A stretch of DNA of 20,622 bases, taken from a virus. The stretch spans positions 1-20,622 of the IMG/VR virus record IMGVR_UViG_3300036716_001198; one strand, written 5' to 3'. This document shows, piece by piece, positions 2,455-4,852 of this stretch. A program made the position numbers and the translations under genes. Numbering within the stretch: position 1 is the stretch's first letter; each line of letters begins with the position of its first letter. Under the pieces are notes generated by a model. The model had not been told where the DNA came from and did not search any database. It saw only the letters and a list, made by a program, of their open reading frames with translations.

Positions 2455-3129
2455 ATGAAAAAATTTATACATCTCGCCAATAGACCTGAGTTGTCTTTTG
2501 GTATGAGAACTGAAAATATTAATGGGAAAAGAATTTATGTTACTCCAGACGGCGACAAATATCCATCAATCACAACTATACTTGGCGAGTTCTCCAAAGC
2601 TTCTATACAGGAGTGGAGAAAGCGTGTTGGAGAAACCGAAGCGAACAAAATCTCCGGTAAAGCCTCGCGTAGAGGAACCAGCGTACATTCTGTCTGTGAA
2701 GCCTATATCAAAAACGAAGACGGATATCTTGACGGACAAACGCCCAACATTATTGAACTATTCAAGACCATTGAACCGTTCCTTGAAAGAGTAGATAATG
2801 TTCATGGAGTAGAACTTGGATTATACTCAAATCATTTTGGTGTCGCGGGTAGAACAGATTTGATTGCAGAGTTCGATGGTAAGTTATCTGTAATAGATTA
2901 CAAAACCAGTAACAGAACCAAGAAGAAAGAATGGTGTGAAAGTTATTTTGCACAATGTGCTTTTTATGGAATAGCGTATGAAGAACTTACAAAAATACCA
3001 GTTCCACAAGTAGTAGTAATCATAGCTGTTGATAGTGAACAGCCCCAATTGTTTGTAGAGAACCGAGATGATTGGGTTGATAAAATATGGGAAGCTAAGA
3101 AATTATATTATGAGGCACATCTTTTGTGA
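2455..3129 (+). CDS. PD-(D/E)XK exonuclease (RecB/Cas4-like)
   Basis: A 224-residue nuclease with the RecB-type PD-(D/E)XK core. An N-terminal segment (YPSITTILGEFSK) leads into GTSVHSVCEAY with H78, then E120 (GVELGLYS), D135 in FGVAGRTDLIAEF, D148 and K150 in LSVIDYKTS, and Q167 in YFAQCAFYG. These are the metal-binding Asp residues, the catalytic Lys and the family's Q motif in the expected order and spacing. Related exonucleases occur in T4-like cyanophages and probably act in recombination or degradation of host DNA. It starts 3 nt after the zinc-ribbon gene with only a weak ribosome site, suggesting coupled translation. It is the last gene before the tmRNA locus. Confidence 0.85.
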   Translation: MKKFIHLANRPELSFGMRTENINGKRIYVTPDGDKYPSITTILGEFSKASIQEWRKRVGETEANKISGKASRRGTSVHSVCEAYIKNEDGYLDGQTPNIIELFKTIEPFLERVDNVHGVELGLYSNHFGVAGRTDLIAEFDGKLSVIDYKTSNRTKKKEWCESYFAQCAFYGIAYEELTKIPVPQVVVIIAVDSEQPQLFVENRDDWVDKIWEAKKLYYEAHLL

Positions 3130-3142
3130 CCTAAATATTATT

Positions 3143-3204
3143 GATACTGTTGACATATCTAGATAACAGTTAAGACATCGGTGCGATTCCGATCAGCTCC
3201 ACCA
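3143..3204 (+). ncRNA. ssrA: tmRNA acceptor piece (3' tRNA-like half)
   Basis: This segment carries the 3' strands of the long P2/P3 helix (3143-3148, 3155-3161, 3166-3171). After them comes a T arm: stem ATCGG (3177-3181) with CCGAT (3189-3193), a perfect 5-bp stem around a 7-nt loop TGCGATT. The loop differs from the usual TTCRANY at its second base. CAGCTCC (3194-3200), A3201 and CCA (3202-3204) complete the acceptor arm. Because CCA is encoded, maturation needs only cleavage after 3204. The exact 5' end is not visible; I place it at the first inter-piece pairing, and it could lie some bases upstream. Confidence 0.88.
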
Positions 3205-3213
3205 AAGGAAGTT

Positions 3214-3306
3214 ATGGAAAAGAAATTAATGTGGCTCACAATAATGATATTGCTCGCATTGGGTATTACTTATGCCACACTTTATTTTGGATATGACTTT
3301 CGTTGA
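3214..3306 (+). CDS. 30-aa single-pass membrane microprotein inside the tmRNA intervening segment
   Basis: An ATG at 3214 preceded by AAAGGAAG opens a 30-codon frame ending TGA at 3304-3306, one base before the coding piece of the tmRNA begins. The product starts MEKKLMW, has a continuous hydrophobic stretch (about residues 7-25, LTIMILLALGITYATLYFG) and ends GYDFR. That is a basic N-terminus, one TM helix and a short polar tail. The whole gene sits between the encoded CCA and the acceptor 5' strand, in RNA that tmRNA processing would discard. A good ribosome site and membrane-like composition argue for a real gene; its size allows a chance ORF. No function can be assigned. Confidence 0.55.
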   Translation: MEKKLMWLTIMILLALGITYATLYFGYDFR

Positions 3307-3307
3307 A

Positions 3308-3505
3308 GGGGCTGAAATAGATTTCGATTGATTGTGAAGGTAGATATAGAGGTATTCGGTAGAGGCACCACCGTAACGGTCCATCAAACTAATCGCAAAT
3401 AATGACGATTATACTGCATACTCTTACGCACTTGCTGCGTAGAGTATAGCCGAGTAGAGGGGTAATACTTTCGGGGAGTCACTTGGGAACAGAAGAACTC
3501 CCCAC
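3308..3505 (+). ncRNA. ssrA: tmRNA coding piece (5' tRNA-like half plus mRNA-like domain)
   Basis: It opens with GGGGCTG (acceptor 5' strand), then a D-loop-like segment containing ATTTCGA that parallels the GATTCGA of bacterial tmRNAs. The 5' strands of P2/P3 follow (3330-3356). Next comes a likely PK1 region (CGGT 3357-3360 can pair with ACCG 3370-3373), then the CTAATC motif just before the resume codon at 3395. Downstream of the tag is hairpin P5: ATACTC 3418-3423 with GAGTAT 3442-3447 and TACGCA 3425-3430 with TGCGTA 3436-3441, enclosing the tag stop. A further 7-bp stem follows (GGGGAGT 3473-3479 with ACTCCCC 3497-3503). I end the piece just after this stem; the true 3' end is uncertain. 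Confidence 0.88.
3395..3442 (+). other. ssrA: tmRNA tag reading frame (ANNDDYTAYSYALAA, stop)
   Basis: Fifteen codons from the resume GCA (3395-3397) to TAG (3440-3442) encode ANNDDYTAYSYALAA. With the untemplated alanine from the charged tRNA-like domain, the full tag would be 16 residues. The opening A-N and the closing Y-A-L-A-A match bacterial tags such as E. coli ANDENYALAA; the terminal LAA is the ClpXP recognition element. The last codons and stop lie inside hairpin P5, the usual place in tmRNA. The tag is five residues longer than the E. coli one. Confidence 0.92.
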
Positions 3506-4350: not shown

Positions 4351-4638
4351 ATGGCAGTTACTAAAAAACAATCCGGCGAAGAATTGTCGGCAATTGAAAA
4401 AAGAAAAGTAAAAAATTATTGGGCAAGAATTACTTTATCGTGGGGTATCGTTCTAACATTTTTAATCTTGATATATTTGTTATTCTTTACACAAGCTACT
4501 TCAGATCCCCACATGCAACTAATTAATATTCTGGTGGGAGCCTACGTGGCAGTCCTAGCGAAGAGTACTGATTACTGGTTCAAAGAGAAAGAAGATCCAG
4601 AACATAAAGAAGCTGAAGCATTAAATAATGGCCGTTAA
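4351..4638 (+). CDS. Two-TM small membrane protein, holin-like
   Basis: A 95-residue protein with a charged N-terminus (residues 1-25), two hydrophobic segments (about 26-46 and 57-73) joined by a short loop, and a highly charged C-terminal tail (KEKEDPEHKEAEALNNGR). This plan, with both tails probably cytoplasmic, is that of small holins; the segment LVGAYVAVLAKSTDYWF resembles the last TM of some phage holins ending near a Tyr-Trp-Phe cluster. I take ATG 4351 (GAGG six nt upstream) rather than the in-frame ATG 4339 that overlaps the nuclease stop. A holin role is inference; any small membrane protein remains possible. It overlaps gp33 by 11 nt. Confidence 0.6.
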   Translation: MAVTKKQSGEELSAIEKRKVKNYWARITLSWGIVLTFLILIYLLFFTQATSDPHMQLINILVGAYVAVLAKSTDYWFKEKEDPEHKEAEALNNGR

Positions 4639-4852
4639 AATGAATAATTCCATGATATTCATGGAGAACATTGAGCAGTTAGTTCAAAAAACTAAGATGA
4701 CTTATATAGATGCTATTATGTTTTACTGTGAAGAAAATAAATTAGAACCAGAAACCGCCGGTAAAATGGTTGGCGGAAAACTGAAACAAAATGTACAAGA
4801 TGAAGCAGAAGATCTTCATCTTATTCCAAAAACATCTAAACTACCAATATGA
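4628..4852 (+). CDS. 33: Late-transcription co-activator gp33
   Basis: In T4, gp33 bridges the sliding clamp gp45 and host RNA polymerase to activate late promoters together with sigma factor gp55. The stretch MTYIDAIMFYCEENKLEPE lines up with T4 gp33 GMSYLEATTAFLEENSIPE. The continuing helices (GKMVGGKLKQNVQDEAEDLHLIPK) match T4's FIPSGIIEKIQSEAIDENLLRP region, the polymerase-binding core. At 74 residues it is shorter than T4 gp33 (112); it lacks most of the N-terminal tail and the long C-terminal clamp-binding extension. The start could be 4628 or 4640; neither has a strong ribosome site. It lies directly upstream of gp32, as expected for this replication and late-transcription neighbourhood. 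Confidence 0.82.
   Translation: MAVKMNNSMIFMENIEQLVQKTKMTYIDAIMFYCEENKLEPETAGKMVGGKLKQNVQDEAEDLHLIPKTSKLPI

Follow-up and report, generated by a model that had tools for sequence, protein, structure and literature searches.

A permuted two-piece tmRNA of a T4-like phage probably carries a small membrane-protein gene in its intervening segment

The analysis of a linear virus record of 20.6 kb, the whole of which (20,622 nucleotides) is called here the window, points to a late phage gene with two successive uses: one transcript would serve as the mRNA of a small membrane protein and then as the precursor of a circularly permuted two-piece tmRNA, a reading to which we assign a probability of about 0.85. 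The spacer of a two-piece tmRNA is usually regarded as waste, and here it appears as a gene slot for unrelated, selected small proteins in marine phages, a slot that is absent from bacteria on this sample (among the matches listed). This would be a new way of packing genes inside structured RNA.

The RNA at 3143-3504 is almost certainly an alpha-type permuted two-piece tmRNA on a fragment of a T4-like phage, as the sequence-only reading had proposed for 3131-3505. In the covariance-model search recommended for checking this proposal, two Rfam models exceeded their gathering scores (Infernal, Rfam 15): RF04321 (tmRNA_permuted) was matched over the full model at 3143-3442 with 109.7 bits (E 5e-21, gathering 47), and RF01849 (alpha_tmRNA) at 3099-3504 with 67.1 bits (gathering 50). 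ARAGORN, also recommended, reported no tmRNA in the window as run here, and a BLASTN search of the window tmRNA against phage records gave no match. The structure mapped from the covariance model contains the acceptor half described earlier, i.e., a 7-bp acceptor stem (3194-3200/3308-3314) that includes the U-G pair of alanine type (G3-U70), ACCA at 3201-3204 with the encoded CCA, and the T arm, together with three further inter-piece helices. The piece boundaries placed near 3204 and 3308 agree with the ends predicted by the model, and the expected resume codon, tag and stop were found as GCA and then ANNDDYTAYSYALAA with its stop. At the same time, the idea that the tag redirects proteins found no support, as the readable phage tags nearly all end in ALAA, AIAA, AMAA or similar proteolysis signals. 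The ORF inside the spacer, which is the most unusual feature of the locus, had been overlooked.

The compensatory changes anticipated for the inter-piece helices were found in an alignment of 21 related loci with 31 modelled pairs. Standard pairs filled 89.9% of the cells, against 32-45% when the partners were slid by 1-3 columns, and double-sided changes occurred in 37 cells (10 of the 31 pairs), with a shuffle mean of 14.3 and 0 of 500 shuffles as high. The acceptor stem is invariant in the relatives. For the two outer inter-piece helices, the paired share was only 69-72% of cells, in part because the divergent tmRNA bodies align poorly there.

Table 1 Features of the tmRNA locus and its conserved neighbours in the window
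Feature	Position	Strand	Basis
Exonuclease (PHROG 298); conserved upstream neighbour of the tmRNA, shared with HTVC008M and Mosig	2455..3129	+	
TAAATA, T4-late-promoter-like; predicted transcript start near 3143	3132..3137	+	enrichment in phage loci
Acceptor piece of the two-piece tmRNA, encoded CCA	3143..3204	+	RF04321/RF01849 alignments, covariation
T arm	3177..3193	+	5/5 pairs conserved across the 21 relatives; one C-G to G-C change, compensatory
Acceptor stem, 3' strand; partner 3308-3314	3194..3200	+	covariance-model structure, covariation
Intervening segment, removed in the two-piece model; holds the protein gene	3205..3307	+	position, homologue scans
Shine-Dalgarno AGGAAG, directly 3' of CCA; pairs with the ORF end in the predicted fold	3206..3211	+	sequence, fold
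Family A ORF MEKKLMWLTIMILLALGITYATLYFGYDFR, 30 aa, predicted single membrane helix (Kyte-Doolittle 2.05, residues 5-23)	3214..3306	+	homologues, dN/dS
Coding piece, with the 5' portion of the tRNA-like domain, the tag frame and the 3' helices	3308..3504	+	Rfam match
Tag reading frame ANNDDYTAYSYALAA, stop TAG, resume codon GCA	3395..3442	+	tag reading
gp33-like late transcription co-activator (PHROG 254); conserved downstream neighbour of the tmRNA	4628..4852	+	

The CCA ending at 3204 and the GGGG starting at 3308 are separated by 103 bases, and this interval is almost filled by an ORF (family A) that is preceded by AAGGAAG, begins 9 nt after CCA and ends 1 nt before GGGG. A homologue search of IMG/VR, queried by the ORF itself and blind to the tmRNA, placed 53 of 53 homologues between CTCCACCA and GGGG, i.e., in a tmRNA spacer, and all of them keep an intact frame. 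The dN/dS computed over 43 distinct ORFs was 0.41 in frame (bootstrap over codons 0.25-0.66, a wide interval because synonymous substitutions are few and the sequences are related) against 0.73 and 1.38 in the other frames. The spacer is 75-95% identical in relatives whose tmRNA body drops to as low as 44%; compared with the window, four loci (L010, L012, L048 and L056) have 75-83% identity in the spacer and 44-52% in the tag-bearing body, a pattern suggesting that tmRNA-like flanks swap around the family A spacer. Taken on these sequence comparisons, the spacer ORF is very probably a real, translated gene. Its loss appears to be tolerated at least sometimes, since two loci (L009 and L073), with a 42-nt spacer in which both ends are kept and the middle is gone, lost most of the ORF and kept the stem and the tmRNA. 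Their spacer looks like what a deletion left of the family A ORF, with the Shine-Dalgarno region, the first codons and the terminal stem retained.

When IMG/VR was scanned with the beginning of the coding piece, many loci showed a family A ORF at the same place and others showed unrelated ORFs. At least three other protein families fill the spacer slot in other marine phages, the cultured Methylophilales phage Melnitz included. Family B (50-59 aa, ending in HEHFNKDWDKDLWD) is found in spacers and as a free gene elsewhere. The ORF of family C (..KIPKYLSG; the Melnitz copy begins with MFKWLSKTRLVV) starts 19-20 nt after the acceptor CCA at 18/18 loci, extends past GGGG at 13 of them, as in Melnitz, and has a dN/dS of 0.23 (bootstrap 0.10-0.45, Melnitz included). 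Family D (38 aa, ..MFRAYIVWSICADI..; dN/dS 0.16, bootstrap 0.09-0.25) lies in the spacer at 59 of the 80 loci examined under a strict rule, with a usual distance of 41 nt from CCA and 1 nt from GGGG; at some non-spacer loci it immediately precedes the tmRNA or has another genomic position (e.g., G010). Phage records searched by tblastn gave no match to the proteins of families A, B and D. Ordinary gene callers skip spacer proteins because these overlap with an RNA gene, and the Melnitz copy is unannotated: in this phage (MZ577097; L281 from 1097), a 54-aa family C ORF lies in the spacer, and its last codons overlap the mature coding piece. The spacer protein of another locus, L199, resembles by eye the gene immediately upstream of the Melnitz tmRNA.

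In the predicted fold of the window (z -3.5 for 3177-3315), the Shine-Dalgarno sequence and the AUG lie opposite the YDFR codons in a stem that continues the acceptor stem. The last four codons of family A show synonymous change of 0, 0.05, 0 and 0, compared with values that rise to about 0.5 in mid-ORF, as would be expected if these codons both encode protein and pair. Base-pairing of the first 14 and last 16 bases is a property of phage spacers with an ORF (median -10.0 kcal/mol, z -3.5) and of those without one (median -13.2 kcal/mol, z -4.7), and the stem probably serves tmRNA folding, because its presence in ORF-less spacers marks it as predating the ORFs or as more widespread than they are. 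An additional role in gating translation, as a switch between translation and folding, is a tentative suggestion from the predicted fold, and we consider it somewhat less probable than its opposite. The same fold could be taken to indicate a leader peptide, the translation of which controls tmRNA folding or expression and the product of which has no other job; the ribosome-binding site and start codon pair with the ORF end and adjoin the acceptor stem, and a single base separates the stop from the predicted RNase P site. However, the amino-acid sequence is under selection, and the slot holds unrelated proteins of 27 to 120 aa, some of which are ordinary genes elsewhere, and we therefore regard a pure leader function as improbable.

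It is also conceivable that the spacer is conserved only as RNA, i.e., as a processing hairpin, with the ORF being an accident of low stop-codon density. The pairing of spacer ends with and without an ORF is compatible with this explanation, the UGA stop could be a by-product, since most spacers of both groups end in TGAT, and the length of the ORF in the window alone is only modestly unusual (p = 0.03 against shuffles). An accident of this kind is nevertheless very unlikely in view of the frame-specific purifying selection in three unrelated families (A, C and D), the Shine-Dalgarno-like motif before 102 of 119 spacer ORFs, the occurrence of families B and D as genes outside spacers, and the filling of some spacers by ORFs that, in the singletons L030 and L193, reach 114-120 aa.

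The proposal that the tmRNA acts late in infection gains support from a putative promoter: a late-promoter-like TAAATA stands at the expected place in the window, with 6/8 letters of TATAAATA, and Melnitz has the complete TATAAATA. Among the matches listed, 122 of 162 permuted tmRNAs from phages have TAAATA at 45-95 nt before the acceptor strand (median -63, 19.5 expected), against 2 of 105 host loci. By T4 promoter geometry, the window motif would set a late start at about 3143, which is the first base of the model. The placement of TAAATA thus suggests late transcription of the tmRNA locus.

Under the preferred reading of a transcript used twice, the T4-like late promoter would give an RNA from about 3143 that comprises the acceptor piece, the spacer with the translated small-protein gene and the tag-coding piece. 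Ribosomes would load at the Shine-Dalgarno sequence just behind CCA as long as the distal part of the spacer has yet to be transcribed or is kept open, and would produce a 30-residue single-helix peptide, presumably located in the membrane. Once the ribosomes have cleared the spacer, the ribosome-binding site would pair with the last codons and extend the acceptor stem, and RNase P and 3' processing would then cut at 3307/3308 and after 3204. The resulting two-piece tmRNA would act with host SmpB and alanyl-tRNA synthetase in ribosome rescue and tagging for proteolysis; the need for host SmpB follows from the finding of no SmpB in six large phage records. It may be speculated further that the RNase P cut, which would put the UGA one base from the RNA end, turns the trimmed spacer mRNA into a non-stop message, and that this message becomes a substrate of the tmRNA from the same transcript, in a kind of feedback. 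As for the peptide, a late membrane role in lysis timing or superinfection exclusion is our guess. A more general form of this proposal, in which the spacers of permuted tmRNAs are a cargo site throughout marine T4-like phages, the RNA being first mRNA and then tmRNA precursor, with the stem that hides the ribosome-binding site making translation and maturation mutually exclusive, appears doubtful at present. If it were true, ribosome traffic would set the amount of rescue RNA made. It offers a testable link between the translation of an RNA and its maturation into a translation-rescue machine, for which the cultured Melnitz allows tests.

Spacers were also compared between phages and bacteria by an ORF length rule (at least 25 aa and at least 60% of the spacer filled), with one pattern-based draw of Alphaproteobacteria from a genome-contig scan as the bacterial control. 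Among the matches listed, the rule was passed by 14 of 85 phage spacers found with a generic coding-piece pattern, by 33 of 40 found with a window-like pattern and by 1 of 106 spacers (median 30 nt) of bacterial permuted tmRNAs, and these counts are not prevalence estimates because the samples rest on exact patterns and on the matches listed. The single bacterial ORF (26 aa, p 0.23) has no Shine-Dalgarno sequence, and a credible combination of Shine-Dalgarno sequence and ORF was found in 0 of the 106 bacterial spacers listed; three Pelagibacter spacers measure 11-12 nt. The phage locus thus resembles the alphaproteobacterial two-piece tmRNA (RF01849, RF04321) in gene order, acceptor stem, T arm, inter-piece helices and tag type, but the latter has, among the matches listed, short spacers without a credible gene and no late-promoter motif. 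A long spacer was also seen in Sinorhizobium phage Phosso (L268; PV764938, about 349596-350198), the permuted tmRNA of which has the longest spacer (410 nt) seen here in a cultured phage; no convincing ORF was found in this spacer.

The assignment to a T4-like phage made from the letters alone was confirmed by homologues in the window of a gp32-like single-strand binding protein, a gp33-like late co-activator, an exonuclease, an endolysin, tail tube and baseplate proteins, a DNA end protector and a head closure protein. Among annotated phages, Kyanoviridae (cyanophages, uncultured phage C48C1) are nearest at the protein level, with 52-54% identity for the exonuclease and gp32. The order exonuclease - tmRNA - gp33 is common to the window, the Pelagibacter phages HTVC008M and Mosig, and L532; in Melnitz, an exonuclease-like gene, the tmRNA and the co-activator are also grouped. 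A tmRNA of this kind is also present in a 177-kb relative (L072, G001). Bacterial misassembly was considered and is ruled out by dozens of independent contigs and the T4-like neighbours. In the window, a gene for an FmdB-like small regulator (PHROG 385) at 2167-2451 adjoins the exonuclease gene.

A split tmRNA in a T4-like phage is not new, contrary to what had been supposed: 53 two-piece structures were described in 18,146 phage genomes, 50 of them marine or aquatic, including those of Melnitz and Mosig (PMC9004378), and the window tmRNA alone is therefore a further case of a known class. Like that of the window, the Melnitz and Mosig tmRNAs are alpha-type permuted, belong to marine T4-like phages and adjoin the gp33 co-activator (PMC9004378). 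Melnitz shares with the window a conserved spacer ORF, although it is of family C in Melnitz and of family A in the window, and differs in having a glutamine riboswitch after its tmRNA, which the Rfam scan found in Melnitz and did not find in the window; Mosig, unlike the window, has only a 44-nt hairpin spacer. A report of an ORF in the intervening segment of a tmRNA was not found in the open-licence literature, and an earlier report is possible. The 2025 tmRNA database lists 79 unique phage sequences and defines the intervening sequence as absent from the mature RNA (PMC11915505). That source also describes a permuted tmRNA whose intervening sequence contains a tRNA-Ala gene. It resembles the window in that a gene is nested in the spacer, but the nested gene is an RNA gene known from one case, a single MAG, and no protein gene was reported in the parts consulted (PMC11915505).

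Group I introns with homing endonuclease genes, which are known from tmRNA genes, have in common with the window a protein gene in a removed precursor segment (PMC11915505). Colonisation of the spacer by selfish DNA, for instance by a homing gene encoded in an intron, would agree with this precedent and with the presence of unrelated genes in the same slot of different phages. However, the intron described there (PMC11915505) is self-splicing, lies in the T loop and encodes an endonuclease, whereas the window has a small non-nuclease protein in the spacer of a permuted form. A PHROG/Pfam search of ten spacer proteins gave only insignificant matches, with no nuclease or intron-encoded protein; the spacer proteins are mostly of 27-60 aa, many of them of membrane type, and the RNA family scan of the window gave tmRNA only, all of which makes a selfish origin highly improbable. 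Equally remote is the explanation that the tmRNA has decayed or lost its function and that the locus is merely a gene of a small membrane protein, for although two relatives (L034/L093) have decayed acceptor halves, the acceptor stem is invariant, the inter-piece helices covary, the tags are intact with ALAA-type ends at most loci, and the covariance-model scores are well above threshold.

In L034/L093, the truncated second acceptor half precedes a complete tmRNA whose T arm differs, an arrangement that looks as though recombination had brought one tmRNA locus into another. In L338 (L062), at 1500-2760, the tmRNA coding half follows a family B gene and a lipase-like gene; no CCACCA occurs in the 2.5 kb upstream of this coding half, the acceptor half of which may be displaced or lost. 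Family B genes outside the tmRNA (L341-L349) often precede a terminator-like hairpin. Additionally, HTVC008M (NC_020484, about 145161-145370; L282:2686-2870) has an unannotated permuted tmRNA with a 49-nt hairpin spacer, and an annotated hypothetical CDS overlaps the 5' part of this tmRNA.
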